A model generated the notes under the pieces. That model was given only the letters and a program-made list of their open reading frames with translations. It was not told the origin of the DNA and did no database searches. This document shows, piece after piece, positions 4,010 to 24,002 of a DNA stretch of 64,000 nucleotides. The stretch is from an uncultured Bacteroidales bacterium (GTDB lineage: Bacteria; Bacteroidota; Bacteroidia; Bacteroidales; Muribaculaceae). The stretch spans positions 1 through 64,000 of the forward strand of contig CADCFN010000011.1 of assembly GCA_902800715.1 (NCBI GenBank). Direction: 5' to 3'. The stretch's first letter is position 1. Every line of letters begins with the position of its first letter. Position numbers and translations under genes: made by a program.

Positions 4010-5518
4010 TTAGCCGCACTGGAAGTACTCGTTCACGAGTTGGCTGGTGCGCTTGGGATCATGCTCGATGTCGTGGCGCAGGGTGCGGTCATCAAACGAG
4101 CGCAGCTCGGCGATGATACCGTCAATCATGTGAGAGCTGAAGACATCCTTCTCCTCGAAGGCGGCACGCAGCTTGTCCAGGCAGTCGGCACTGGCGACAC
4201 AGCTGTCGGGCAGGCAATCGAGCTCGTTGAGGCGTGCAGCGTTGGCGGCATCGTGGATGTTCACGTCAACATAGGTCTTAGCAGCCAGTTCAAGAGCATT
4301 TTCCATCTCGAAGCCGTGGCGGCAAGCTACGCACAGACCGGCAAGCAGCTGATAGATGTCGGCCGAGCCGTCCGGTGAACGCATTTCGACGGTCTGCTTC
4401 TGAGTCGTGTCAAAGTTGCTGGCAGGCTCCAGCGGGTTGGCAGCGCGGCACATGTCGGCACCAGCGGTCCAGCCCAGAGGCACGCGCACGAGCACCGAGC
4501 GGTTGCGGTCGCCCCAGCACACGTTGGTGGGAGCCTCCTGGTGGGGAACCAAGCGGAAGTAGGACATCGGATTCTTGTTACCGAAGGCCGTGATGGCGGG
4601 AGCCAAGTCCATCATTCCGGCGATGGCCTTGCGGGCCTCGTCGCTCAGGACGCCCTTATCGTTAATCATCATGTTGCGGCCATCCTTCATCATGCGCATG
4701 TGGATGTGGAGACCAGAACCAGCCTTGCCGGTAGTAATCTTGGGAGCGAAGGTCACATTCAGGTTGGCACGGAAAGCCAGGTTCCTGATGACCCACTTGG
4801 CAACCATCAGCTGGTCGGCAGCATCGAGCACGGGAACGGGCAGGAACTCGATTTCGTTCTGCTCATAGACCACGCCGTCCTGCTCAAAGTTGCCCACCTC
4901 GCTGTGACCGTACTTAATCTGGCCACCGGCCTTGGCGATGTAGTCCATGCAACGCTGGCGGAAGTCGTTGGTCTTGGCATAAGGCATTGACTCGTGGTAG
5001 CCGTGCTGGTCGCGGGCGGGATAGTAGTCCACCGAAGGACGGATGACGTAATACTCCAGCTCACCCATGGCCTCATATTCCATACCGGTTACCTCGCGGA
5101 AAGCCTGAGCGGCCTTGCGCAGTGTCTGCTCGGGAGAGCTCTCCAGCGGGTTGCCGTCCTTGTCAAAGAACGAGCACAGCAGGCACAGGGTGGGAATCTC
5201 GGCGAACGGGTCGAGGAAAGCGGTGCTGAATCGAGGCAGCACATACAAGTCACTGGAACTAGCCTGGATAAAGCTGAACAAGCTCGAACCGTCAACGCGC
5301 TCACCACATGACAGGATGGTGCGCAGATAATCCTTGCTGCTGATGACAAAATTCAGGGTTTTCAACTTGCCGTCACCGCCGGGGTACATGAAATTGACCA
5401 TACGGATGTTGTTCTCCTCAATGAAGCGGATGATGTCGGCCTTAGTGAACTCGTGCGGCTCTTTCTGCAGGTAGGCCACAACCTGATTGGCGTTCAACGC
5501 CAGAATCTCGTTTTCCAC
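4010..5518 (-). CDS. glnA: Glutamine synthetase, type I-like
   Basis: Condenses glutamate and ammonia with ATP to glutamine in the cytoplasm. At 502 residues it is slightly longer than typical GSI. The N-terminal beta-grasp part contains NFMYPGGDGKLKTLNF. The catalytic domain shows ELEYYVIRPS (metal-binding Glu), GSGLHIHMRMMKDG (nucleotide/metal site), RLVPHQEAPTNVCWG and RNRSVLVRVP (substrate Arg). At the position of the adenylylation loop (usual NLYDLP) the protein reads ELDCLP (residues 432-437), so the regulatory tyrosine is absent and control by GlnE-type adenylylation is unlikely. It is a single-gene unit with a terminator at 3917-3975 and a -7 promoter at 5606-5613, giving an ~80-nt leader. 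Confidence 0.93.
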   Translation of the reverse strand: MENEILALNANQVVAYLQKEPHEFTKADIIRFIEENNIRMVNFMYPGGDGKLKTLNFVISSKDYLRTILSCGERVDGSSLFSFIQASSSDLYVLPRFSTAFLDPFAEIPTLCLLCSFFDKDGNPLESSPEQTLRKAAQAFREVTGMEYEAMGELEYYVIRPSVDYYPARDQHGYHESMPYAKTNDFRQRCMDYIAKAGGQIKYGHSEVGNFEQDGVVYEQNEIEFLPVPVLDAADQLMVAKWVIRNLAFRANLNVTFAPKITTGKAGSGLHIHMRMMKDGRNMMINDKGVLSDEARKAIAGMMDLAPAITAFGNKNPMSYFRLVPHQEAPTNVCWGDRNRSVLVRVPLGWTAGADMCRAANPLEPASNFDTTQKQTVEMRSPDGSADIYQLLAGLCVACRHGFEMENALELAAKTYVDVNIHDAANAARLNELDCLPDSCVASADCLDKLRAAFEEKDVFSSHMIDGIIAELRSFDDRTLRHDIEHDPKRTSQLVNEYFQCG

Positions 5519-5605: not shown

Positions 5606-5636
5606 CAAAGGTAGTGCAAGTCGAGCACAATGGCAA
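5606..5636 (-). promoter_or_regulatory. Promoter of glnA within the repeat array edge
   Basis: On the minus strand TTG (5634-5636), a 20-nt spacer and TACCTTTG (5606-5613) form a promoter facing glnA. The -7 box overlaps the first copy of the tandem repeat that begins at 5610. Confidence 0.72.
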
Positions 5637-5935
5637 GAAAAAAACTATTTTTTCTTCCATTGTCGAGGCGCAGCCTACCTTCGCCAAAGAGCAACGGTAG
5701 TGCAAGTCGAGCACAATAGCAAGAAAAAAAACTTTTTTCTTCCATTGTTGAGACGCAGCCTACCTTCGCCACAGAGCAACGGTAGTGCAAGTCGAGCACA
5801 ATGGCAAGAAAAAACACTTTTTTCTTCCATTGTTGAGACGCAGCCTACCTTCGCCACAGGGCAACGGTAGTGCAAGTCGAGCACAATGGCAAGAAAAAAA
5901 ACTATTTTTTCTTCCATTGTTGAGACGCAGCATGC
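5610..5935. repeat. Four tandem ~85-bp repeats with internal palindromes
   Basis: Copies begin at 5610, 5696, 5781 and 5866 (periods 86, 85, 85). Each starts GGTAGTGCAAGTCGAGCAC. Each contains an A/T-rich palindrome built from CAATGGCAAGAAAAAA and TTTTTTCTTCCATTG and ends near GCAGCCTACCTTCGCC; the last copy is cut after CGCAGCATG. The outer GGTAG and CTACC also pair, so each unit can fold into one long hairpin. Short open frames across the array are low-complexity translations of the repeat and not genes. Related units occur at 24040-24170 and 25553-25720. Apart from the two flanking promoters I see nothing else in the 5519-6036 gap. Confidence 0.93.
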
Positions 5936-6036: not shown

Positions 6037-6732
6037 ATGAAACGAACAATTCTCCCGATATTCTTGGCATTGCTGGCACTCACCGCGAGCGCCCAGCTGC
6101 CCCAGTTCACCAGCGACGACTATGATAGCTGGACCTACAGCAATCCCAATATCCCCCTGTCGCCCAGCACCATTGCTGGCGGACGCGTCGTTTTCTACGT
6201 CAATAGCCTAGGGGTGGCACTCACACTGACGTCCTCACAATTCAACTGTCAGGGCATCAACAAGATTGATACCGATGTGATATGGTACACCAAGTACTTC
6301 AACGACAACAAGTTTGACCTAGACAAGGCAACACTGACACTCGTCATCGAGGACGGGGAGGGGCATCCGCTGGACTCGGTCACCTGTGTGCCGACCACAC
6401 CCGGAATAAGCACCCATTACTTATCACTGTCCTTACCTGTGCCCACTGGGCTGACTACCGCTAGGCTGCGCTTCGTGTCGTGGACTGGAGATGTCATCAG
6501 TAGTGGAGGCATCAAGAGTGCTACTTTCACCGCCTCAGGCACACAGCCCGGGACCACGACAGGCGATGTAAACGGCAACGGTTATGTGGACATTTCGGAT
6601 GTCACCATCCTCATCGACTATCTGCTGAACGGCAGTGGCAACATCCAGGTTGACGCCGCCGATGTGGACCATGACGGCAACGCCAGCATCAGCGACATCA
6701 CCGCCCTCATCGATATATTACTAGGGAATTGA
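6037..6732 (+). CDS. Secreted protein with C-terminal dockerin-like repeats
   Basis: A 231-residue exported protein. Residues 1-19 (MKRTILPIFLALLALTASA) are a clear signal peptide. A beta-rich domain follows (about 20-170) that I cannot assign; its pattern resembles beta-sandwich or carbohydrate-binding modules. Residues about 176-231 hold two calcium-loop segments, GDVNGNGYVDISDVTILIDY and ADVDHDGNASISDITALIDI. This is the dockerin-type EF-hand pair common at the C-termini of Bacteroidales surface proteins. No cohesin is visible in the window, so the pair may act as a calcium-stabilised tail or sorting signal (inference). The convergent fucP gene ends 3 nt downstream. It has its own promoter at 5973-6003. 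Confidence 0.82.
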   Translation: MKRTILPIFLALLALTASAQLPQFTSDDYDSWTYSNPNIPLSPSTIAGGRVVFYVNSLGVALTLTSSQFNCQGINKIDTDVIWYTKYFNDNKFDLDKATLTLVIEDGEGHPLDSVTCVPTTPGISTHYLSLSLPVPTGLTTARLRFVSWTGDVISSGGIKSATFTASGTQPGTTTGDVNGNGYVDISDVTILIDYLLNGSGNIQVDAADVDHDGNASISDITALIDILLGN

Positions 6733-6735
6733 CGA

Positions 6736-8052
6736 TTAATTCTTGTGGCGCAGGCTGTAGAGCAATACAACGACAAAGCAAACGACGGGCACGACAAACG
6801 ACAGATTGACAGCGGGCAACACTTGCACATTGCTGTCGATAATCATTGCCTGTAAGGCAGGCAACACACTACCGCCCAAGATTGCCATAATCAATCCTGC
6901 CGACCCCAACTCGGTATCTTCCTTCATTCCGCCCAGGGCGATGCCGTAGATTGTGGGGAACATCAGACTCATGCAGGGCGAAACGGCAACAAGGCAGCAC
7001 ATGCCCACGCGACCTCCTATGAAAATGACTCCACATAGCAGCAACAACGCCACAGCGGCAAAGAAGGCCATCAAACGCCCCGGCTTGATATATTTCATCA
7101 GATAGATATTCACGAAGCGCATCAGGCAGAACAGCACCATTGCCACAATGTTATAGCGCTGGGAGAGCACCTCGGCAGCTTGTTCGCCCATACCTTCGGC
7201 CATAAAGACGCGTGTGCCGTATTGGATGATAAACGTCCAGCAGGTAATCTGTGCGCCCACATAGAAGAACTGTGCCACCACGCCCCAGCAATAGGGCTTG
7301 TTGGCCGTCAACCGCTTGACAGCGGGCCACAGCGGCTCATGGCGCTCACGTGCCGACTGGCGCACGGCAGGGATGGGCGTAAACAGCATGACCACCAACA
7401 GCAACACGAGCACACTCCCCAGCAGGGCATAAGGTTGGATCAGCACGCCCAAGTCGCTTTGCTTCAAGGCCTCGAACTGCGCATCATCGAGCACGGCACG
7501 CTGGGTGGTGTCGAGCGGCGAGAGCCGTGCCTGGATGAAATTCATTGCTACAAACATGCCCGCCAGCGACCCGATGGGATTGAACGACTGGGCCAGATTC
7601 AGGCGCCGCGTGGCAGTCTCGCGGTCGCCCATGAGCAGGATGTAAGGATTGGCAGTCGTTTCAAGGAACGACAAGCCGCAAGTGAGAATGAAATAAGCTA
7701 CAAGGAAAGGGGCAAAACTGCCCATCGACCGAGCGGGAATAAACAGGAGCACGCCCAGGGCATATAGCGCCAATCCCATAATAATGCCGCTCTTGAACGA
7801 GTGGCGGCGGATAAACATCGCCGCAGGCAGTGCCATACAGAAGTAGCCACCGTAGAAAGCGACCTGGACCAGCGTCCCGTCGGTCACGCTCATGCGGAAA
7901 ATCTTGGAAAATGCTTTCACCATCGGGTTGGTGATATCGTTAGCAAAGCCCCACAGGGCAAAGCAGCACGTCACCACGATGAAGGGGAGCACGTAACTCA
8001 CGCCCTCGCGCGTCACCAGCAATCGGGATTTATTGTCTTGATCGGTTGTCAT
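6736..8052 (-). CDS. fucP: L-fucose:H+ symporter (FucP, major facilitator superfamily)
   Basis: A 438-residue inner-membrane transporter with about 12 hydrophobic segments, matching the length of the FHS/FucP family. It imports L-fucose, and related members import other sugars, by proton symport. Family signatures include CCFALWGFANDITNPMV in helix 1, YGGYFCMALPAAM in helix 2 and GLSFLETTANPYIL, whose Glu corresponds to the proton-coupling Glu of E. coli FucP, plus the LNLAQSFNPIGSLAG stretch. Nearby on the same strand are a sugar mutarotase and a nucleotidyltransferase/GHMP protein, which suggests use of fucose or a related deoxysugar. Fucose isomerase, kinase and aldolase are not in the window, so substrate preference is inferred. 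Confidence 0.93.
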   Translation of the reverse strand: MTTDQDNKSRLLVTREGVSYVLPFIVVTCCFALWGFANDITNPMVKAFSKIFRMSVTDGTLVQVAFYGGYFCMALPAAMFIRRHSFKSGIIMGLALYALGVLLFIPARSMGSFAPFLVAYFILTCGLSFLETTANPYILLMGDRETATRRLNLAQSFNPIGSLAGMFVAMNFIQARLSPLDTTQRAVLDDAQFEALKQSDLGVLIQPYALLGSVLVLLLVVMLFTPIPAVRQSARERHEPLWPAVKRLTANKPYCWGVVAQFFYVGAQITCWTFIIQYGTRVFMAEGMGEQAAEVLSQRYNIVAMVLFCLMRFVNIYLMKYIKPGRLMAFFAAVALLLLCGVIFIGGRVGMCCLVAVSPCMSLMFPTIYGIALGGMKEDTELGSAGLIMAILGGSVLPALQAMIIDSNVQVLPAVNLSFVVPVVCFVVVLLYSLRHKN

Positions 8053-8703: not shown

Positions 8704-9039
8704 TCACATTCCTAACTTGAATATTCGCTCCATCAGTTGCCACTTGGCAGTGGAGGGCGCAGACGGGTCACAGCCCTGGAAGCGGGCGACATAGGCTTCC
8801 CACTCGGCCTGCCGGGGCAATTGGGCCAAGCGGGCGTTGTCGGCTTCCCAGTCAAAGTCATCGGTCGTGTCACATATCATGAACAGGCGGTTGCCGAGGA
8901 TATAAATCTGCATGTCGAGGATGCCCACACTGCGGATGCCCGCTTGGATTTCGGGCCACACGTGGGCGTGGGCCTCTACATATTTCTCTATCAGCTCGCG
9001 GTCGTTGCGCAGCTCGAGGGTTTGGCAGTAACGTTTCAT
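8704..9039 (-). CDS. L-rhamnose/L-fucose mutarotase (RhaM family)
   Basis: A 111-residue cytoplasmic protein of the RhaM (DUF718) family, which interconverts alpha and beta anomers of 6-deoxyhexoses. The length is typical (about 104-115). The N-terminal MKRYCQTLELRND, the EAHAHVWPEI segment with the catalytic His (H24 or H26), and the C-terminal KWQLMERIFKL fit the family. In Bacteroidales such genes are annotated as rhamnose or fucose mutarotase; the neighbouring FucP favours fucose (inference). Downstream on the same strand are the orphan lipoprotein and fucP; upstream is a tract of simple repeats. Confidence 0.9.
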   Translation of the reverse strand: MKRYCQTLELRNDRELIEKYVEAHAHVWPEIQAGIRSVGILDMQIYILGNRLFMICDTTDDFDWEADNARLAQLPRQAEWEAYVARFQGCDPSAPSTAKWQLMERIFKLGM

Positions 9040-9066
9040 CGTTTTTTAGTTTCTAGTTTCTAGAAT

Positions 9067-9158
9067 CATTAAAGTCATTAAAGACATTAGGGTCATTAAA
9101 GTCAAACCCCTAATTCCTAACTTCTAATTCCTAATTCCTAATTCCTAACTCCTAATTT
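9067..9158. repeat. Simple 9-mer and 7-mer tandem tract
   Basis: Four near-copies of CATTAAAGT (about 9067-9102) are followed by about seven copies of a TAATTCC heptamer with single-base variants (about 9111-9157). The tract supplies the TAG stop (9145-9147) and last residues of the adjacent cytidylyltransferase gene. Similar tracts occur at 18901-18928 and 37681-37720. Confidence 0.85.
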
Positions 9159-10311
9159 TCAAAGTAATGGCTCCCTCAGGGAAACTCTCGCGGTCACGGC
9201 AAACAAGGGCCAAGTAGCCACCACCGCCCGCGCCGGGCATCTTCCACGCCAGCACGCCAGGCATGGCGCTATAGCGGTCGATGTAGTCCTGCACACCAGG
9301 CTGTATCATCGCGGGGAACATCGCCACCTGGGCGTTGAATGAGGCCTTGTAGGCTGCAGCAAAAGCGTCTAGATCACATCGCTGGATGGCATCCCAGCAA
9401 CGGTCGGCAGCAGCAGCCAGTGCCTCTACCTTCTCTCGGGTGATGTCCTTGCCAACCACCACGCTGCAACCGGGGCGACGTGGGAACATGGGAATCATGC
9501 ACAGGTGGTCTTCCAGCCAGCCGAGCAAGGTGGGGTCACAAGTATATTCTATCTTCTCGGGCCAATAACTGCCATTATAATAATGTCGGGCAAGACCAGG
9601 AACGCAGATACCGATGGCATCCTGAGCACCGCTCACGATGCCGTCGCTGCGCTCGGGGTCATTCTCGAGGCAAAAGACCAGACGTGCCAGCATCTCGGGG
9701 TCCATGTTGGGCAACTGTATGGGCCACACGCGCTTGATGGTGTTGCGCGTGCTGGTGGATAGGCCGCATCGCTCACGTATCTCAAAAGTGGGTTCCAGCG
9801 AGATGGTCAACGCCCAACCGGGGGCATAACATGAGACATAGGGCTGGTCAATCCATGTACCCGCCAGGTCCAGGCGTGTGGGCAACTGGCTGGGCAACTT
9901 TTTCAGGTCGGTGCTGCTGCGAGCGGCAAGGCCATCGCTTGGGACCCGCTTGAGCACAATGTACTCCATGCCGCGCTCGCGGCACAAGGCGCGTTTCTCC
10001 TCGCGGTCACCGTCCTCGTTGACCACAAGGCAGTCGGGCCGCACGATGTCCAGTGTGGGCAGGAAGTCGAGGTAGCCGTCACCCTGATTGATGTAGGCCT
10101 CCTTGACATAGCGGATAGCTCGCACCATGAACAGGCGTTCCTGCTCGCTGTACATCGTCTTGTGCCCTTTCAAGGCCGCGATGGTATTATCACTGCCGAT
10201 GCCCACATACAGGTCGCCATACTGCGCTGCCTGCCTGAAGAACTCCACATGGCCCGAGTGCAGCAGGTCATAGCACCCCGACACAAACACTTTCTTTTTC
10301 AGTTCAGCCAC
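9145..10311 (-). CDS. Cytidylyltransferase fused to GHMP-kinase-like domain
   Basis: A 388-residue two-domain protein. Residues 1 to about 138 are a nucleotidyltransferase of the RfaE/TagD (HxGH) type: FVSGCYDLLHSGHVEFF with the catalytic HSGH, and SSTDLKK at the domain end. From about residue 142 the sequence resembles GHMP sugar kinases: LPTRLDLAGTWIDQP (motif 1), SDGIVSGAQDAIGI and PGAGGGGYLALV (motif 3). The glycine/serine ATP-binding loop (motif 2, usual form PxxxGLGSSAA) is absent between motif 1 and GAQD, so this half may bind sugar without phosphorylating it. Next to a mutarotase and FucP, a role in activating a deoxy- or heptose sugar is plausible but unproven. Confidence 0.85.
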   Translation of the reverse strand: MAELKKKVFVSGCYDLLHSGHVEFFRQAAQYGDLYVGIGSDNTIAALKGHKTMYSEQERLFMVRAIRYVKEAYINQGDGYLDFLPTLDIVRPDCLVVNEDGDREEKRALCRERGMEYIVLKRVPSDGLAARSSTDLKKLPSQLPTRLDLAGTWIDQPYVSCYAPGWALTISLEPTFEIRERCGLSTSTRNTIKRVWPIQLPNMDPEMLARLVFCLENDPERSDGIVSGAQDAIGICVPGLARHYYNGSYWPEKIEYTCDPTLLGWLEDHLCMIPMFPRRPGCSVVVGKDITREKVEALAAAADRCWDAIQRCDLDAFAAAYKASFNAQVAMFPAMIQPGVQDYIDRYSAMPGVLAWKMPGAGGGGYLALVCRDRESFPEGAITLKIRS

Positions 10312-10340
10312 TTCGTGTTTTCAATTAGTTTCTAGTGCCA

Positions 10341-10348
10341 CAAAGGTA
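10341..10348 (-). promoter_or_regulatory. -7 promoter element for the cytidylyltransferase gene
   Basis: TACCTTTG on the minus strand lies 30 nt before the start codon at 10311. No convincing -33 box is seen at the usual distance. Confidence 0.6.
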
Positions 10349-10374
10349 CAACATCCCGTCCACAGGAGCATCAT

Positions 10375-10403
10375 GAAGGGCGGAAAAATGCTCTCCGCCC
10401 TTC
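10375..10403 (-). terminator. Hairpin after trpB
   Basis: A perfect 10-bp stem (GAAGGGCGGA with TCCGCCCTTC) and 9-nt loop lie 40 nt beyond the trpB stop. No T-tract follows on the minus strand, so termination would be weak or factor-assisted. Confidence 0.55.
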
Positions 10404-10442
10404 ACAATCCAATTCCATATTGTTTAACCAATCCTTTCGTTC

Positions 10443-11807
10443 CTATTCTGGCACACTCTTGAGTGTCCTGGCGATATCTACATCCGAGACTTGATAGTTC
10501 ATCAAGTCGCCATTCAGGTATTGTTCATAGGCGCTCATGTCAATGAGGCCATGCCCTGAGAGGTTGAACAAGATGACCTTTTGCTCTCCAGTCTGTTTGC
10601 ACTTTTCTGCCTCGCGGATGACAGCGGCAATGGCATGCCCGGACTCGGGGGCGGGAATGATGCCCTCGGTGCGGGCAAAAAGCATCGCTGCATCAAACGA
10701 CTCCAACTGCGGGATATCCACACCACGCATCAGTCCGTCTTTCAGCAACTGGGAAATAATCATGCCGGCGCCATGATAGCGCAGGCCACCCGCATGGATG
10801 TTTGCAGGCTTGAATTTGTGGCCCAACGTGAACATCGGCAACAACGGGGTGTAACCAGCCTCGTCGGCAAAGTCATAACGGAACTCGCCCCTTGTCAATT
10901 TGGGACAACTCTCGGGCTCGGCAGCGATAAACTCGGTCTGCTTGCCGTCCTTCAGATTGTGACGCATGAACGGGAAGGCGATACCGCCAAAGTTGGAGCC
11001 ACCACCAAAGCAAGCAATCACCACGTCAGGATACTCGCCAGCCATCGCCATCTGCTTCTCGGCCTCCAAGCCGATAATCGTCTGATGCAGGGCCACATGG
11101 TTGAGCACCGACCCCAGGGTGTACTTGCAGTTAGGGGTCGTGGTGGCCAGTTCCACAGCCTCGGATATGGCTGTTCCCAGCGATCCGGGGTGTTGCGGGT
11201 CACGCGTGATAATGTCCTTGCCGGCACGAGTCGACATCGAGGGCGACCCTGTCACAGCAGCGCCGAAGGTACGCATAATGGACGAGCGGTAAGGCTTCTG
11301 CTGCATCGAGATTTTCACTTGATAGACCGCTGATTCCAATCCGAAGACCGAGGCGGCATAGGCCAAGGCTGCGCCCCATTGCCCGGCACCGGTCTCGGTA
11401 GTGACGTTGGTCGTTCCTTCTTGCTTGGCATAGTAACACTGAGGCAACGCCGAGTTGACCTTGTGTGAGCCCAACGGGTTGACCGACTCATTTTTGAAAT
11501 ATATGTGAGCTGGCGTCTGCAACACCTCCTCGAGCGCATAAGCGCGAACGAGCGGCGTAGAACGATAGGCCTTATATTTATCCATGACCTCGTCGGGGAT
11601 GGGGATGAAGTCATGCTCGTTGTCCAGTTCCTGAACACAACACTCACGCGGAAAGATGCGTGCCAAGTCGTCCACACCCAGGGGCTGCTTGGTGGCAGGA
11701 TGGATGAGCGGCATGGGCTTGTTGGGCATGTCGGCTTGGATGTTATACCATGCAGTGGGTAACTCGTTCTCTTGCAGAATAAATCTCTTTTGTTTCATTT
11801 TGGTCAT
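10443..11807 (-). CDS. trpB: Tryptophan synthase beta chain, TrpB2 type
   Basis: Joins indole and serine to make tryptophan, using pyridoxal phosphate, in the cytoplasm. At 454 residues it belongs to the longer TrpB2 branch (usual TrpB1 is about 400). The PLP lysine is K116 in NPLGSHKVNSA. The substrate loop ETGAGQWGAAL and the cofactor phosphate loop CFGGGSNFGG are intact. No trpA or other trp gene lies beside it, so it stands alone, as TrpB2 often does, perhaps salvaging indole. Upstream on the same strand are a promoter, an 18-codon leader with three consecutive Trp codons and a terminator. Expression is therefore probably controlled by tryptophan-dependent attenuation (inference from sequence). 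Confidence 0.95.
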   Translation of the reverse strand: MTKMKQKRFILQENELPTAWYNIQADMPNKPMPLIHPATKQPLGVDDLARIFPRECCVQELDNEHDFIPIPDEVMDKYKAYRSTPLVRAYALEEVLQTPAHIYFKNESVNPLGSHKVNSALPQCYYAKQEGTTNVTTETGAGQWGAALAYAASVFGLESAVYQVKISMQQKPYRSSIMRTFGAAVTGSPSMSTRAGKDIITRDPQHPGSLGTAISEAVELATTTPNCKYTLGSVLNHVALHQTIIGLEAEKQMAMAGEYPDVVIACFGGGSNFGGIAFPFMRHNLKDGKQTEFIAAEPESCPKLTRGEFRYDFADEAGYTPLLPMFTLGHKFKPANIHAGGLRYHGAGMIISQLLKDGLMRGVDIPQLESFDAAMLFARTEGIIPAPESGHAIAAVIREAEKCKQTGEQKVILFNLSGHGLIDMSAYEQYLNGDLMNYQVSDVDIARTLKSVPE

Positions 11808-11828
11808 GTATTATTATTAATAATGTTT

Positions 11829-11860
11829 AAAAGGCCTGTCGCGAGAACGACAGACCTTTT
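11829..11860 (-). terminator. Attenuator terminator before trpB
   Basis: On the minus strand a stem of AAAAGG plus CTGTCG with their complements (one mismatch) and a 6-nt loop ends in CCTTTT. It lies 22-53 nt upstream of the trpB start and 43-74 nt after the Trp-rich leader peptide. GGTC in its 5' arm can alternatively pair with GACC at 11892-11895, a possible antiterminator. Confidence 0.75.
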
Positions 11861-11902
11861 ATTCTATTTTGTTATCCTAATGATTCCAAATGGTCATGCG
11901 AC

Positions 11903-11959
11903 TCACGACTTTTTCAATCTTGAGTTGCACCACCACCAATATGCTGAAAACATTGACAT
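11903..11959 (-). CDS. Trp-rich leader peptide (trpL-like)
   Basis: An 18-codon frame, MSMFSAYWWWCNSRLKKS, starts about 20-25 nt after the predicted transcription start and ends before the attenuator hairpin. An internal ATG at 11953 would give 16 residues. Three consecutive TGG codons (11930-11938) are the hallmark of ribosome-mediated tryptophan attenuation. When charged tRNA-Trp is scarce, stalling here would favour antitermination and trpB expression. This is inferred from arrangement and codons; no homology is claimed. There is no clear Shine-Dalgarno site, which is normal in Bacteroidetes. Confidence 0.78.
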   Translation of the reverse strand: MSMFSAYWWWCNSRLKKS

Positions 11960-11986
11960 TAATATCTCATATTTATGTTGACGTTG

Positions 11987-12018
11987 CAAATATATAAACA
12001 TAATTTGATTGCAACCAA
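11987..12018 (-). promoter_or_regulatory. Promoter of the trp leader-trpB transcript
   Basis: On the minus strand TTG (12016-12018) and TATATTTG (11987-11994) are separated by 21 nt. Transcription would start near 11981, just before the leader peptide. Confidence 0.8.
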
Positions 12019-12130
12019 GAAAAATCAGGAAAAAGTAATCGTTAGACATAAAGAACTACGAAAATCGGTCAAAACAGGTCATCTATTCCGGGTCCGTAAC
12101 GCGGGAAAAACAATGTAATTGCAGATTTGA

Positions 12131-12162
12131 TTTGGATTTATGCAGATAAAAGCTTAATTTTG
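12131..12162 (+). promoter_or_regulatory. Promoter of the DUF853 ATPase gene
   Basis: TTTG (12131-12134) and TAATTTTG (12155-12162) are separated by exactly 20 nt. The start codon is at 12216. Confidence 0.88.
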
Positions 12163-12215
12163 TGACCAAGTAACGTGAAAGAAAACAAATAACCAATAAT
12201 TATAGCAACACGACT

Positions 12216-13796
12216 ATGTACACTCAAGAGAACGGATTCTATATTGCTCACGGACCCAACGGGCCCATCAGCATCCTGGGCAACATGGCCAACCGCCACG
12301 GCTTGATTGCCGGAGCTACGGGAACAGGTAAAACGGTGACGCTGCAGGTGATTGCCGAGAGTTTCTGCAAGGCGGGCGTGCCCTGCTTCATGGCCGACAT
12401 GAAGGGCGACCTGTCGGGCATCAGCCAGCCAGGCAAGCTGTCGGGCTTCATCGAGAAGCGACTGCCCGAGTTCGGCATCGACAAGGAGAGCCTCACCTTT
12501 GAGGGCTGTCCCGTCAGGTTCTATGATGTCTTTGGCGAACAAGGTATCCCCATGCGCGCCACCATCGGCGAGATGGGCCCTGACCTGATGGGCCGCATCC
12601 TGGGGCTGAACGATACCCAGACGGGCGTGCTCAACATCCTGTACCGCATTCTCGACGAGAAAGGCATCCTGCTCGACGACCTCAAGGACCTGCGTTCGGC
12701 TCTGGACTGGCTGTCCAAGCATGCCAAGGAATACACCACCCAATATGGCAACGTGGCTCCTGCCAGCATCGGCGCCATCCAGCGTGCCCTGTTGCACCTT
12801 GAGAACCAAGGCGCTGACAAGTTCTTCGGCATCCCGTCGTTCAATATCCAGGACCTGATGGACACACGCGATGGCATGGGCGTGATGAGCGTGCTCGCTG
12901 CCGACAAACTGATGCTGCAGCCCAAACTCTACTCGACCTTCCTGCTGTGGCTCATCAGTGAGCTGTACAGCACCCTGCCCGAGGTGGGAGACCTGGAGAA
13001 GCCCAAGCTGGTATTCTTCTTTGACGAGGCTCACATGCTGTTTGAGGACACGAGCAAAGCGCTCACCGACAAGATTGAGCAGGTCATCCGCCTCATCCGC
13101 AGTAAGGGCGTGGGCATCTTCTTCATCTCACAGCTGCCCACCGACATCCCCGACATCATCCTGGGCCAATTGGGCAACCGCGTTCAACATGCCCTGCGAG
13201 CCTACACGCCGCGCGACCAGAAGGCCGTCAAGGTGGCTGCCGAAACTTTCCGTGCCAACCCCGACTTCAAGACCGAAGACGCCATACTCGAGTTGGAAAC
13301 AGGCGAAGCGCTGGTATCATTTCTTGACGAGAAGGGCGCTCCTAGCGTAGTAGAACGCGCCAAAGTCCTCTTCCCGCTGAGCCAAATCGGCGCCATCACC
13401 GAGGGCCAACGCCTGGACATCATGAATGCCGCCAAGGACATCAACAACAAGTACAAGGAAGCACAGGACCGCGAGAGCGTCTTTGAGGTCTTCGCCCGTG
13501 AAGCCGAAGCCGAGGCTAAAGCCGCCGAAGAGGCCGCAGCAGCCAAGGAGGCCGAGAAAGAGGAGAAGTCCAAGAAGAAAGAGAAAACCATCTGGAGCAA
13601 GGTCTGGAAAGCCGTCGTCACAGCTGTGACAGGCACGGTGGCTACTATCCTGGGCAAAACCGTCTCGGATGCCATCACTGGCAAGAAGAGCAAGAATACC
13701 AGCGTCAAGGATGCCGCAGGGCGAGCCGTGAAGAACGCCACCAGCGCAGCAGGGCGCCAAATCCTGCGTGACATCCTGGGCAACGCGACCAAGTAA
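12216..13796 (+). CDS. HerA/FtsK-like ATPase of the DUF853 (YjgR) family
   Basis: A 526-residue predicted helicase or translocase ATPase. The Walker A motif GATGTGKT lies at about residues 32-39 and the Walker B LVFFFDEAH near residue 270, followed by an RSKGVGIFFISQLPTDIPD segment typical of the HerA/VirB4 fold. The core ends near residue 400 in a stretch diagnostic of DUF853 (ALRAYTPRDQKAV). A highly charged Ala/Glu/Lys coiled-coil segment (about 425-460) and a C-terminal tail with a hydrophobic patch complete the protein. The DNA or protein substrate of this family is not established. It is a monocistronic unit with its own promoter and terminator. Confidence 0.9.
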   Translation: MYTQENGFYIAHGPNGPISILGNMANRHGLIAGATGTGKTVTLQVIAESFCKAGVPCFMADMKGDLSGISQPGKLSGFIEKRLPEFGIDKESLTFEGCPVRFYDVFGEQGIPMRATIGEMGPDLMGRILGLNDTQTGVLNILYRILDEKGILLDDLKDLRSALDWLSKHAKEYTTQYGNVAPASIGAIQRALLHLENQGADKFFGIPSFNIQDLMDTRDGMGVMSVLAADKLMLQPKLYSTFLLWLISELYSTLPEVGDLEKPKLVFFFDEAHMLFEDTSKALTDKIEQVIRLIRSKGVGIFFISQLPTDIPDIILGQLGNRVQHALRAYTPRDQKAVKVAAETFRANPDFKTEDAILELETGEALVSFLDEKGAPSVVERAKVLFPLSQIGAITEGQRLDIMNAAKDINNKYKEAQDRESVFEVFAREAEAEAKAAEEAAAAKEAEKEEKSKKKEKTIWSKVWKAVVTAVTGTVATILGKTVSDAITGKKSKNTSVKDAAGRAVKNATSAAGRQILRDILGNATK

Positions 13797-13847
13797 GCGT
13801 CAGTAAAGCCCGACTGCAACCAGACACTAATATTGTGCAACAAACTT

Positions 13848-13886
13848 ATCGGCCCAATGGTGGGGGATTCCCGCCGTTGGGCCGAT
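13848..13886 (+). terminator. Terminator after the DUF853 gene
   Basis: A 10-bp stem (ATCGGCCCAA with TTGGGCCGAT) continues into an inner GGTGGG/CCCGCC stem. It lies 52 nt after the stop; the following T-content is modest. Confidence 0.78.
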
Positions 13887-13956
13887 TGCTTGCTTAGTAA
13901 TGGATGCTTGTTATTGCACTTGTAATGGTTGTTTTATCACTTGTTGTCTCGTCTTC

Positions 13957-14105
13957 TTAATTCACTGTCAAGGCTTGCCGGCCGCATCGATAGCAATGGT
14001 TCGTTTAATTATTAAGTATGGTTTGTTTTATCAATATTAATGTGCGGCAAAAGTCGTTGTTATTAAGTGTGTTTCGCGACCGGCTAAGCCTGACTAGTGA
14101 ATTAA
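13957..14105. mobile_element. MITE-like element with ~28-bp inverted ends
   Basis: Two imperfect inverted repeats of about 28 bp face each other: 13958-13985 (beginning TAATTCACTGTCAAGGC) and 14076-14104 (ending GCCTGACTAGTGAATTA). They differ by one or two indels and a few substitutions. Both ends carry TTAA, which could be part of the ends or a target duplication. The ~90-bp interior has no gene and repeats ATTATTAAGT-like words. It lies between two convergent genes. No transposase is present, so a mobile origin is inferred; a very large regulatory hairpin is the alternative. Confidence 0.5.
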
Positions 14106-14127
14106 CATTATTATTACTATCATTTAT

Positions 14128-14664
14128 TTACTTGTTTGCTGGGCTGAATTCGTCAAAGCGGCCATCACTGTAGAAGACCACGATGTTGATCACGCGACGC
14201 GGGTCGGAGGCATCACCACCTCGTGACGGTACCCGGCCAGCAGTGTTGCGCATGAAGGTGCGCAAGGTCTCACTCATGGGTGCGCTGGACTGCACACGCT
14301 GGGCAGGCTTTGATGACGAACCATAACCGTTCGGCTGATCATCATCAAACGTGATGGAACGATGCTGACCCATATCATCAGGGAGGCTTTCAGCGCCCGA
14401 TTGGGAAACTGACATTTTGTCATTGTTCGCCTGGGCATCCGAACCGTTGAGCAACATCTCTCCATCACCGAACATGAGCCACATCACGTTCAGGGAGGGA
14501 TACGCACGATGGATCTTGCCGATGACTTCATCACTGACTTTCTTGTTGCGACCATTGAGCAACTGTGAGAGCGTGGGACGAGGAATGTCACACGTGTCTG
14601 CAAATTGGGAACTCGAAATTCCCGCATTGTTCATGAATAATTTCAGTCTCGATACAATATCCAT
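14128..14664 (-). CDS. XRE-family helix-turn-helix regulator
   Basis: A 178-residue DNA-binding protein. Residues about 1-65 form an XRE/Cro-like domain with the recognition region SSSQFADTCDIPRPTLSQLL and NPxW-like end LNVMWLMFGDGEML. The remaining ~110 residues are polar and probably disordered (PDDMGQHRSITFDDDQ), ending in a short hydrophobic strand INIVVFYSDGRFDEF. This layout recurs in Bacteroidetes phage-repressor-like regulators. A perfect 12-bp palindrome lies 20-31 nt upstream of the start, suggesting autoregulation. About 1.3 kb of noncoding A+T-rich DNA lies beyond it. Target genes are unknown. Confidence 0.85.
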   Translation of the reverse strand: MDIVSRLKLFMNNAGISSSQFADTCDIPRPTLSQLLNGRNKKVSDEVIGKIHRAYPSLNVMWLMFGDGEMLLNGSDAQANNDKMSVSQSGAESLPDDMGQHRSITFDDDQPNGYGSSSKPAQRVQSSAPMSETLRTFMRNTAGRVPSRGGDASDPRRVINIVVFYSDGRFDEFSPANK

Positions 14665-14683
14665 TTAGAACACTTTTTTTAGT

Positions 14684-14695
14684 GCGCTTAAGCGC
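14684..14695. promoter_or_regulatory. Candidate operator palindrome upstream of the XRE gene
   Basis: GCGCTTAAGCGC is a perfect 12-bp palindrome in otherwise A+T-rich DNA, 20 nt upstream of the XRE start codon. The position fits autoregulatory binding; this is inference. Confidence 0.5.
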
Positions 14696-15785
14696 GCGAG
14701 AGTACCATAAATCAGAACAAAAAATTTTCTGACCCAAAATATCGATTTGGAAACGCTCCCAAAATCGCCCTCAAACTCAAAAAACGCTATTTACGTTTTT
14801 TAATTTTGGGATTGCAAATTTAAAACGAATAATTGAATTGACCAAATTTAAAAACGAAAATTTTATAGTTTGCAATTAATATTTCCAAAAAATGACAATT
14901 TTTGACCAATTTCAAAAGTAAATAGATTTAGTTATACTTGTACTTTAATATATATCTTGTACCTTGTTGTATTTTAGTTATTTATGTATTACATTTTCTA
15001 GCAAGACAAACAATACCAGGCGGGTTGTTGTTTTATTTTAAGCAATACTATAATTATTTAGCGTAATTCATTGGAAATGAGTTAATTGTAGCTTTTGTAA
15101 ATAATTGTTAATGCGATTTTTTGGTGATTTTGTAAACTTTACGGGTGCAAATTCGTATTTTTTAAGCCATGAGCACAATTGCAAACTGCCCCTGGAGGTC
15201 AAAAACCGGGATCAGGCACCCCTAGCCCATCATTCAAAAACGCAAATGAGATGCTGTTTTCAAAGCCGAATATTGTGTTGGTAAAATACCAACTTTGATT
15301 TTTCTGGAGCTCAACTCGATTTCCTTGTGATATTTTCCAGCAAACCCTAAATCACTCCGAAATACTAAAATTTAATCCACTCATACCAATTCACATTATT
15401 GTCAAATATTGACAATAATATAGTATTTATCGGTGGTTTAGAAGAAAAACCATCCTAAAAATGCTCATTTCTACCCTATCCAAAAAACTAAAAAAACGGT
15501 CAAAATCGCGATTTTTGTTGCATTTTGCCTCAAAATAGAAAAATAAGCCAAAATGAGGAAATTTAGAACACTTTTTCCTATAGAAAACTCAACTCGAAAT
15601 GTTGCTTCTTTCCCACTCTTCAAGCATTTAAGGCCACAAAAAGCAGCTTCCCAAAAATACGTTTTCTCCTATTCCCGGCATCAGATTTTGGCATTATCGG
15701 GTGACCTGTGACTGCTATAGAGCAAATTTTTCTGACCCAAAAATCATGCAAAAGTTGAAAAAGTTCATTTATACCCCACCCAACC
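14696..15785. other. A+T-rich noncoding region with palindromes
   Basis: About 1.1 kb without a credible gene on either strand. Two perfect short palindromes stand out: TTGGTA-AAA-TACCAA at 15278-15292, and an 11-bp-arm palindrome beginning ATTATTGTCAA at 15395-15419. Two words near the XRE start recur about 0.9-1 kb away in the same orientation: ATTTAGAACACTTTTT at 14663 and 15561, and TTTTCTGACCCAAAA near 14725 and 15728. I see no tRNA, rRNA or known riboswitch. Confidence 0.6.
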
Positions 15786-21434: not shown

Positions 21435-24002
21435 CTAAAGGATATAGGCAATGACGGCGTTGATGTCGGCGATAGTTACCTCGCCATCGCCGTTCACATC
21501 GGCTCGGCCTTCATAGATGTCAGGATGTCCCAGAATGATGCTGATAACACAATTCACATCGGCGATGCTCACCTCGCCATCAGCGTTCACGTCACCCTTG
21601 AGTGAATCAACTTTTCCCGTGAGATAGCCAGGACTGCTTGGTCCGCGGTCAATACGGGCATAAGTGGCATCCACATGTTTCTCATCATAAACTGTGCCCT
21701 TGCCACCGACAAGACTAGTGCAGCCAGCAAACATTTCACTGGACTCTGTCACGTTACTTGTACTCCAGCCCTTGCCAGCGAATATTGTTTCCAGATGCTT
21801 GCAGCCAGCAAACATGCCTCCCATGTCGGCCACACTTGAGGTGTTGAAGCGACTCAAGTCAAGGGATGGCAGGGATTCGCAGCCCTGGAACATATATTCC
21901 ATCTCGGTCACATTCCTAGTATTGAAACCGCTCAAATCAATATCATTCAAGGACTTGCAGCCACTGAACACATAACCCATGTATTTCACATTCGAGGTAT
22001 TGAAGCCGCTCAAGTCAATAGAGGTCAAATATTTGCAGCCAGCGAACATGCCAGCCATGTCTTTCAGATTATCTGCCTTGAAGCCTCTCAGGTTAAGGGA
22101 GGTCAAAGTATCGCAATCCGAGAACATGCGCGCCATATTTGTTACTCTTGAAGTATTAAAACCGCTCAGGTCAAGCGAAGTCAAAGAATCACAGTCACTG
22201 AACATCGCCCACATGTTTGTCACATTCTCGGTATTGAAATTGCTCAAATCAATGGATTTCAACGATTTACAACCAGCAAACATTCTTCTCATATCGGTCA
22301 CTGAACTGGTGTTTAAATAGTTGATTCCTGTAATGGAATCCAGCTCAGCCATTCCGCTAAACCAACCGTAGGTGGAAGTGGGGCGCGCAGCGACAAATGT
22401 GCTGTCTATCAGCACACGGGTGATACTCTCGGCATTCTCTGACCAACCAGGACTGGTTGTTCCGGTATTCAGCAAATAGCTGGTGCCTTGGCGGATGATG
22501 CGCTTGCTGTCGTTGTACAACGTCAGCGTCATGTTTTCGGGCATGTAGCAGGCATAAGCCTCCTTCCATTCAGTCAGGTAACCTGGATTGGCTAAGCCAC
22601 CGTCGATATGGGCATAGGCAGCATCCACATGATTCTCATCATAGAATGTTCCTTTCTCACCCACAAGCCTGGTGCAGCCATAAAACATATTCTCTGACCC
22701 AGTTACAGAATCAGTAGACCAACCACTGCCAACATAAATTGTTTCCAAAAGATAGCAATTAGTGAACATCTCACTCATGAGGACCACACTCGAGGTGTTG
22801 AAACCATTCAAGTTAATAGATGTCAAGGATTCGCAGCCATTGAACATGCCTCCCATTAATGTCACATTAGAGGTATTAAAGCTGCTCAGGTCAATGGATG
22901 TCAGAGAATTACTGCCCTCGAACATGTATCTCATGTCTGTCACATTAGAGGTGTTGAAGGCGCTCAAGTCAAGAGAAGTCAACGCCCGGCATACAGCAAA
23001 CATGCCATTCATGTCTGTCACATTGGAGGTATTGAATCCACTCATGTCAAGGGTAGTCAATGACTGGCATCTAACGAACATTGCCCTCATGTTTGTCACA
23101 TTAGATGTGTTGAAATTGCTCAAGTCAAGGGTAGTCAATGAAGAGCAATTATAGAACAAGCCTTCCATAGTTGTTACATTGGAGGTGTTGAAATTGCTCA
23201 AGTCCAGGGTTTTCAAGGCTCGGCAACCATAGAACATGTAACTCATGTCGGTTGCCGCAGAGGTATTGAAACCACTCAAGTCAAGGGAATCCAATTCATC
23301 GCAATTCATGAACAAACATCTCATGTATGTCACATTCGAGGTATTGAAACTACTCAAGTCAAGAGATTTCAATCTGATACAGTCAGCAAACATGAATCCC
23401 ATTTTAGTCACACTGGAGGTGTTGAATCCACTCAGGTTAAGGGAATCCAATGAAGAGCAGTGATAAAACATGCCTTCCATGTCTATCACCTTTGCAGTGT
23501 TGAATCCACTCAAGTCCAGGTATTTTAACTGTGAGCACTCCTGGAACATGCTCATGAAGTCTGTCACGTTAGATGTATTGAACCCGCTCACATCAATGGA
23601 AACCAATGATTTGCACCCCTGGAACATTTTGCTCATGTCAGTCACCGAGTCGGTATTCAGATAATTGATTCCTTCAATAGAGTAAAGCTTTAGCATCTCG
23701 CGGAACCAAGCCAACGTGGAAGTGGGACGGGCGTCGACAAATGTGGTGTCAAACACCACTTTGGAGACATTGCCCCTGTTCTCATACCAACCGGGAACGC
23801 TATCCGTTATCATCAACGAATAGGAAGTGCCCGGGCGGGAACTGCGCTGGTCATCATAGAAGAATGTCAGCGTGCTGTCGGCCTCGGTAAATATGGTGTA
23901 AGCCTCCTGTGCCCTCGCTGCAAATGATACAAACATCAACAACAGCAGCATCAAGCATCGGCCAATGGATTTCTTGAAATATAATGGTCGTCTCATCATC
24001 AA
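21435..24002 (-). CDS. BspA-like DUF285 repeat surface protein with dockerin-like tail
   Basis: An 855-residue secreted protein. After a signal peptide (about residues 10-31) come two blocks of 26-residue repeats of the form FNTSNVTDMxxMFxxCxxLxxLDLSG, about 12 in the first block and 7 in the second. Each block is preceded by a related ~80-residue domain (YDDQRSSRPGTSYSL in one, YNDSKRIIRQGTSYLL in the other) and closed by a GWST...MFxGCTxLVGxKGT segment, so the protein is an internal duplication. It ends in two EF-hand-like segments (GDVNADGEVSIADVN and ADVNGDGEVTIADIN). Such proteins mediate adhesion or surface binding in related bacteria. A dispersed repeat carrying a -7 box lies directly upstream. 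Confidence 0.92.
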   Translation of the reverse strand: MMMRRPLYFKKSIGRCLMLLLLMFVSFAARAQEAYTIFTEADSTLTFFYDDQRSSRPGTSYSLMITDSVPGWYENRGNVSKVVFDTTFVDARPTSTLAWFREMLKLYSIEGINYLNTDSVTDMSKMFQGCKSLVSIDVSGFNTSNVTDFMSMFQECSQLKYLDLSGFNTAKVIDMEGMFYHCSSLDSLNLSGFNTSSVTKMGFMFADCIRLKSLDLSSFNTSNVTYMRCLFMNCDELDSLDLSGFNTSAATDMSYMFYGCRALKTLDLSNFNTSNVTTMEGLFYNCSSLTTLDLSNFNTSNVTNMRAMFVRCQSLTTLDMSGFNTSNVTDMNGMFAVCRALTSLDLSAFNTSNVTDMRYMFEGSNSLTSIDLSSFNTSNVTLMGGMFNGCESLTSINLNGFNTSSVVLMSEMFTNCYLLETIYVGSGWSTDSVTGSENMFYGCTRLVGEKGTFYDENHVDAAYAHIDGGLANPGYLTEWKEAYACYMPENMTLTLYNDSKRIIRQGTSYLLNTGTTSPGWSENAESITRVLIDSTFVAARPTSTYGWFSGMAELDSITGINYLNTSSVTDMRRMFAGCKSLKSIDLSNFNTENVTNMWAMFSDCDSLTSLDLSGFNTSRVTNMARMFSDCDTLTSLNLRGFKADNLKDMAGMFAGCKYLTSIDLSGFNTSNVKYMGYVFSGCKSLNDIDLSGFNTRNVTEMEYMFQGCESLPSLDLSRFNTSSVADMGGMFAGCKHLETIFAGKGWSTSNVTESSEMFAGCTSLVGGKGTVYDEKHVDATYARIDRGPSSPGYLTGKVDSLKGDVNADGEVSIADVNCVISIILGHPDIYEGRADVNGDGEVTIADINAVIAYIL

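Follow-up and report, generated by a model that had tools for sequence, protein, structure and literature searches.

In the analysed stretch of DNA (64,000 nucleotides, hereafter the window), the minus strand was found to carry a short leader frame with three tryptophan codons and with stems that are conserved and co-vary in relatives, placed ahead of trpB2; the genome itself yielded no TrpA and no IGP synthase. Judged from these sequence features, the leader is very probably a ribosome-mediated transcription attenuator that ties trpB2 expression to charged tRNA-Trp, and it is put forward here as a candidate regulation. The architecture of trp attenuation on a lone TrpB2 had been proposed in an earlier note on this DNA, and is supported by the conserved Trp codons and stems, by two co-varying helices and by Trp frames in 17 family-level groups. 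The elements described in that note, namely a minus-strand promoter, an 18-codon frame with three consecutive TGG codons, a stem-loop ending in TTTT and then trpB, were all confirmed by reading the sequence, and are arranged as follows.

11987–12018, minus strand: promoter, with TTGG (12018-12015) 20 nt upstream of the TATATTTG box (11994-11987), read from the sequence.
11849–11982, minus strand: match to Rfam RF01692 Bacteroid-trp, 37.7 bits, gathering threshold 49.
11903–11959, minus strand: leader peptide frame MSMFSAYWWWCNSRLKKS, from ATG 11959 to TGA 11905-11903, 18 codons plus TGA, read from the sequence and aligned with 26 other distinct leaders.
11930–11938, minus strand: three consecutive Trp codons, TGG TGG TGG, read from the sequence.
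11890–11936, minus strand: 1:2 hairpin spanning the Trp codons and the stop codon, from folding and the RNAalifold consensus.
11892–11895, minus strand: GACC of region 2, candidate antiterminator partner of GGTC 11856-11853.
11829–11860, minus strand: terminator-like hairpin (3:4) with a 14-bp stem, a 4-nt loop and a TTTT end, from folding and RNAalifold.
10443–11807, minus strand: trpB2, standalone TrpB-like PLP enzyme, likely start 11798.

The TATATTTG box is presumably a Bacteroidota promoter box of the TAnnTTTG type, and boxes like it precede the leader in many relatives too. For trpB2, the ATG at 11798 (MKQKRF...) is the more likely start when compared with 11807, the MKQKRF start being shared by many relatives; the hairpin 11860-11829 ends about 30 nt before this likely start, and the start codon lies outside the hairpin. 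With tryptophan in ample supply, the translating ribosome would pass the three TGG codons, reach the stop (11905-11903) and cover region 2, upon which the hairpin 11860-11829 would form and transcription would end ahead of trpB2. With tryptophan scarce, the ribosome would stall on the TGG codons and cover region 1, and the freed region 2 would hinder the terminator, allowing trpB2 to be read. TrpB2 would then turn external indole into tryptophan, the indole coming from outside because the indole-making pathway is mostly gone from the genus. Stalling, the antitermination step and the direction of the response are what we infer from this arrangement, the direction depending on the footprint of the ribosome on its message.

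The stretch 11985-11829 was predicted to fold with −51.6 kcal/mol (z −5.98), a value equalled by none of 200 shuffles. Together, the genus and near relatives in the named collection yielded 34 leader copies, seven of which were dropped for more than 95% identity to another; the alignment of the 27 distinct leaders (A1) contains the window's own. Across these 27 leaders the terminator, the Trp codons and the hairpin spanning them were conserved, with the Trp run being WWW in most and WCW or WW in a few, and RNAalifold recovered both the 1:2 hairpin and the terminator from the alignment. Absence of the leader frame or hairpin from relatives was the outcome named in the earlier note as speaking against attenuation; both are present. 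Compensatory changes in the stem, also suggested there as a check, were evaluated by a swap test in which the 5' strand of each row was paired with the 3' strand of another. The terminator and the outer helix, in which the leader start pairs with the stretch after region 2 and extends the 1:2 hairpin, were both found to co-vary, with 0/1000 swaps as good in each case and again 0/2000 after declustering to 13 less-alike rows. The signal of the inner 1:2 pairing was weaker (44/1000 swaps as good). Four controls for the outer helix gave 1865 and 857 (flat), 120 (borderline) and 5 (beating the swaps) of 2000 swaps as good, the last at −5.8 kcal/mol versus −9.8 kcal/mol for the real helix; since one control also beats the swaps, part of the co-variation signal may reflect relatedness.

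The alternative pairing of GGTC with GACC fared less well than the stems. Of the 27 leaders, 21 retain GGTC along with GACC or GGCC, but the swap test gave no co-variation for GACC:GGUC (318/1000 swaps as good, and 411/2000 with 13 rows). With a ribosome stalled at Trp (region 1 masked), the mean upstream pairing of the terminator 5' arm was 0.44, in no excess over shuffled spacers (0.45), and 0.43 was obtained with no ribosome, so that in the folding of alternative structures the proposed antiterminator pairing performed no better than chance. With the ribosome at the stop the value was 0.24, the direction of which fits the classical model, whereas the other values give no support. A thermodynamic switch in the leader was sought and not found in these pairing values (0.44, 0.45 and 0.43). 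As to the terminator, the run after the stem of 11860-11829 has just four U (CCTTTTAAAC). In a simple scan that requires at least 5 T in 8, the hairpin appeared as a plus-strand site (11836-11853) and had no minus-strand entry; over 9000-15000 the scan returned six sites, the same as in shuffles (5.7). Similarly, the T-rich-tail rule used for the order-level leaders rejected the window hairpin on account of its four-U tail.

The protein encoded by trpB2 passed the cut-offs of TIGR01415 (587.8 bits, cut-off 518.85) and NF009057 (682.3 bits, cut-off 366), and scored 146.6 bits with the canonical TrpB model TIGR00263 against a cut-off of 392.45; its best solved chain was 6hul_B (E 1.1e-125). No trp genes were seen adjoining trpB2 in the window. 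Downstream of it stand 9145-10311 and 8704-9039, with domain-level or weak matches to nucleotidyltransferases and a rhamnose mutarotase, and 6736-8052, an L-fucose permease above cut-off. On the other side, divergent from trpB2 over one intergenic region, lies an ATPase-like gene (12216-13796) for which the CedD/HerA model matches were far under their cut-offs. Elsewhere in the window, two tandem arrays were observed, one at 5606-5931 (85-bp unit repeated 3.8 times with 94% matches), flanked by the larger frames 4010-5518 and 6037-6732, and the other at 22921-23363 (78/156-bp period) within the frame 21435-24002. Genes for TrpB2 in Bacteroides were already noted in 2007, as stated in part of the text of PMC1854888, and the B. 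thetaiotaomicron TrpB2 BT_RS23500 is described, in the portion of PMC11535334 that concerns it, as giving a cross-feeding benefit to an E. coli trpA mutant, attributed there to indole. By analogy with this Bacteroides relative, from which the reaction is carried over, the window TrpB2 likely makes tryptophan from indole.

The genus sample comprised 61 genomes, own included, and was searched with a model (R1) built from A1. Matches at E up to 0.01 were obtained in 24/61 genomes and scores of at least 100 bits in 20; the window leader, one of the 27 in the model, scored 156.4 bits. No TrpA was found in any of these 20 genomes. By coordinates, 19 of the 20 leaders immediately precede TrpB2 and share its strand, and in the remaining genome (G020) the leader is at one contig's end and TrpB2 at the start of another contig. 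TrpB2 was above cut-off in 37/61 genomes, TrpA in 2/61 and IGP synthase in the same two, with the other 59 showing neither. The own genome, 88.87% complete, gave no TrpA and no IGP synthase, and its sole TrpB match is the window TrpB2; at this completeness a single missing gene counts for little, a limit that does not apply to the genus-wide pattern. A search for IOR alpha, of the indoleacetate route, gave some match in 61/61 genomes and passed the cut-off in 0/61.

Canonical trpB1 was present in three genus genomes, G042 (TIGR00263 538.4 bits, over cut-off), G004 and G060, those of the latter two being pieces for which TIGR00263 was best by far over the TrpB2 models. Short Trp frames were found upstream of all three (YWWWRNSEFK..., IMWWRAW and IAWWRLSGF..., respectively); R1 gave 51 bits on the G042 leader and did not detect the G004 and G060 ones at E up to 0.01. 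The G042 gene (L233, on contig C104) is an orphan trpB1 with its own YWWWRNSEFK leader and hairpin, and trpA was not found in that genome (86% complete).

The named collection gave 589 relatives; of the best 80, 15 had a leader within 400 nt. For L008 and L020 the sequence available upstream was shorter than that, and L008 was left out for this reason. At two loci, L068 (2864-2981) and L067 (2811-2955), trpB2 has no Trp frame and a promoter-like box with a terminator-like hairpin is kept immediately upstream; the leader frames look to have been lost there. These remnants without a Trp frame indicate that decay seems to occur, and the same might be supposed of the window, with the leader inherited, the regulation gone and trpB2 in effect constitutive, a reading with which the four-U tail and the weak antiterminator would agree. 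Against it, the window retains its Trp codons, stop position and both stems intact, and its leader reaches the above score with the 27-leader model (to which it belongs), which makes decay of this attenuator quite improbable.

Over the order, 198 genomes were sampled, TrpB2 was above cut-off in 65, and 63 upstream regions were used (the own gene and one partial gene being excluded). A strict rule was applied, which asked for a frame 8-45 codons long, containing three Trp in a stretch of five residues and lying no more than 420 nt upstream of the HMM match. Such frames were found upstream of 19/63 TrpB2 genes, in 17 family-level groups and beginning at −196 to −276, and were absent by this rule from the other 44. 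In dinucleotide shuffles the mean expectation was 0.025 (40 rounds, maximum 1), and the controls were empty on the other strand (0/63), in the next 420 nt upstream (0/63) and at the gene start (0/30). The Trp runs vary over the order (WWW, WRWRWW, WWCW, WWLW and WWRRW), and it is therefore the Trp content, not one sequence, that is kept. A chance frame beside an unrelated hairpin would be in line with the short frames and stems common in AT-rich intergenic DNA, and with terminator-like sites being no commoner than in shuffles, but it is contradicted by the conservation, by 19 frames where 0.025 were expected and by leaders of at least 100 bits in 20/61 genus genomes, and it is left with almost no probability.

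A hairpin with a T-rich tail was found in 18 of the 19 order-level leaders; pairing of the Trp region with the spacer exceeds that of shuffles in these 18 (Stouffer −5.58), and the antiterminator is marginal (Stouffer −1.99). These tails bear on the possibility of translational control, in which the hairpin 11860-11829 would hinder ribosome access to the trpB2 message, or its stability, and stalling on the Trp codons would bring relief without antitermination. Such control would suit a stem followed by four U only and missing from the minus-strand terminator list, an antiterminator that appears neither in the swap test nor in ribosome-masked folding, and a hairpin end some 30 nt from the likely start. 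However, the start codon is free of the hairpin, and the tailed hairpins of the 18 leaders count against translational control because it is transcription termination that needs such a tail. Translational control is thus considered unlikely, if less so than decay, and transcription attenuation is preferred. The idea that the presence of the leader merely accompanies loss of the trp operon was also considered and rejected, as 8/19 of the strict leader-bearing order genomes have TrpA over cut-off and 11 do not; it is also contradicted in the genus, where several leaderless TrpB2 genes sit in TrpA-less genomes.

At the gathering threshold, Rfam returned two tRNAs only over the whole window. At a relaxed threshold, RF01692, entitled 'Bacteroidete tryptophan peptide leader RNA', aligned over model positions 1 to 131 at an E value of 0.0056, its score being under gathering; a second match in the own genome (contig C3, 23.6 bits, E 4.8) is without a Trp run and was set aside as chance. 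None of the 61 genus genomes reached the RF01692 gathering score. Over the order, sites at E up to 0.01 were found in 28 of 198 genomes, with 10 over the cut-off, and the gene that follows, named by eye from sequence features and not by HMM, was trpB1 in 16, trpE in nine, TrpB2 in one and unreadable in two. On these 28 sites of other families, R1 gave 19.3 to 74.2 bits; 20/28 exceeded the best opposite-strand match (42.2 bits, opposite-strand matches sharing the hairpin only) and 14/28 exceeded the best other-family TrpB2 leader (48.3 bits). From these scores, the window leader is a diverged relative of the known element. The two are alike in phylum, part order, YWWW run, hairpin over the Trp codons, start of the terminator arm and full-model alignment, and differ in that the window stays below threshold (37.7 bits against 49) and that RF01692 sites stand mostly before trpB1 or trpE. 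The Bacteroidetes motif was marked 'y' both for RNA and for cis-regulation by Weinberg and others in 2010, in the part of PMC2864571 that lists it.

This likeness in sequence points to a leader of trp-operon type near the window, re-used before TrpB2, in a comparison where RF01692 sites were picked by likeness and TrpB2 leaders by position. On a TrpB2 tree of 83 rows, the leader state needs 12 changes, at least five of them forced by starred branches, with gain and loss indistinguishable and a long-branch warning attached; the leader labels were partly assigned by a looser rule, and L008, L020 and most even-numbered leaderless loci above L026 were left out.

The enterobacterial trpL shares with the window a leader peptide with Trp codons, a 1:2 hairpin and a terminator (in the window, a candidate one), as well as a stop codon sited so that the terminating ribosome would cover region 2. 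It differs in that the window leader precedes one likely salvage gene and not a biosynthetic operon, and in that the window antiterminator is weak; the Rfam Trp leader family of enterobacteria gave no match in the window at either the gathering or the relaxed threshold. In Corynebacterium diphtheriae, a Trp attenuator has been predicted before trpB2A, according to the relevant part of PMC1262725, and is similar in standing ahead of a second trpB gene. The C. diphtheriae gene, however, stands with trpA, whereas the window TrpB2 is alone, with no trpA found in the genome. Among the matches listed, this attenuator is the nearest in print, and none of the titles and abstract starts listed from open-access papers dealt with attenuation ahead of a standalone Bacteroidota trpB2. 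The type of switch is already known; here a candidate of this type precedes a probable indole-salvage gene in various related bacteria.

More tentatively, and with somewhat less than even probability, the Bacteroidales Trp attenuator may be a portable module that accompanies whichever TrpB a lineage relies on. In the genus, after loss of the trp operon, an operon-type leader would then stand before the salvage TrpB2 (in one genome, before an orphan trpB1), and the cell's own shortage of tryptophan alone would switch on the scavenging of indole from its neighbours. Related leaders before trpB1, trpE and trpB2 offer test material for the re-use of leaders after operon loss. If the attenuator works as proposed, trp attenuation in Bacteroidota would be wider than RF01692 detects (1/28 of its sites before TrpB2 versus 19/63 TrpB2 genes by the frame rule), and indole salvage, a cross-feeding trait, would come under a sensor that reads the cell's own tryptophan state directly. 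In a survey of gut genomes, tryptophan synthase (TrpA, TrpB) alone was treated as a variant of Trp auxotrophy that may use indole precursors, as given in the pertinent part of PMC9026213. Genomes scored as Trp auxotrophs that carry the leader and trpB2 as a unit may be conditional users of indole.
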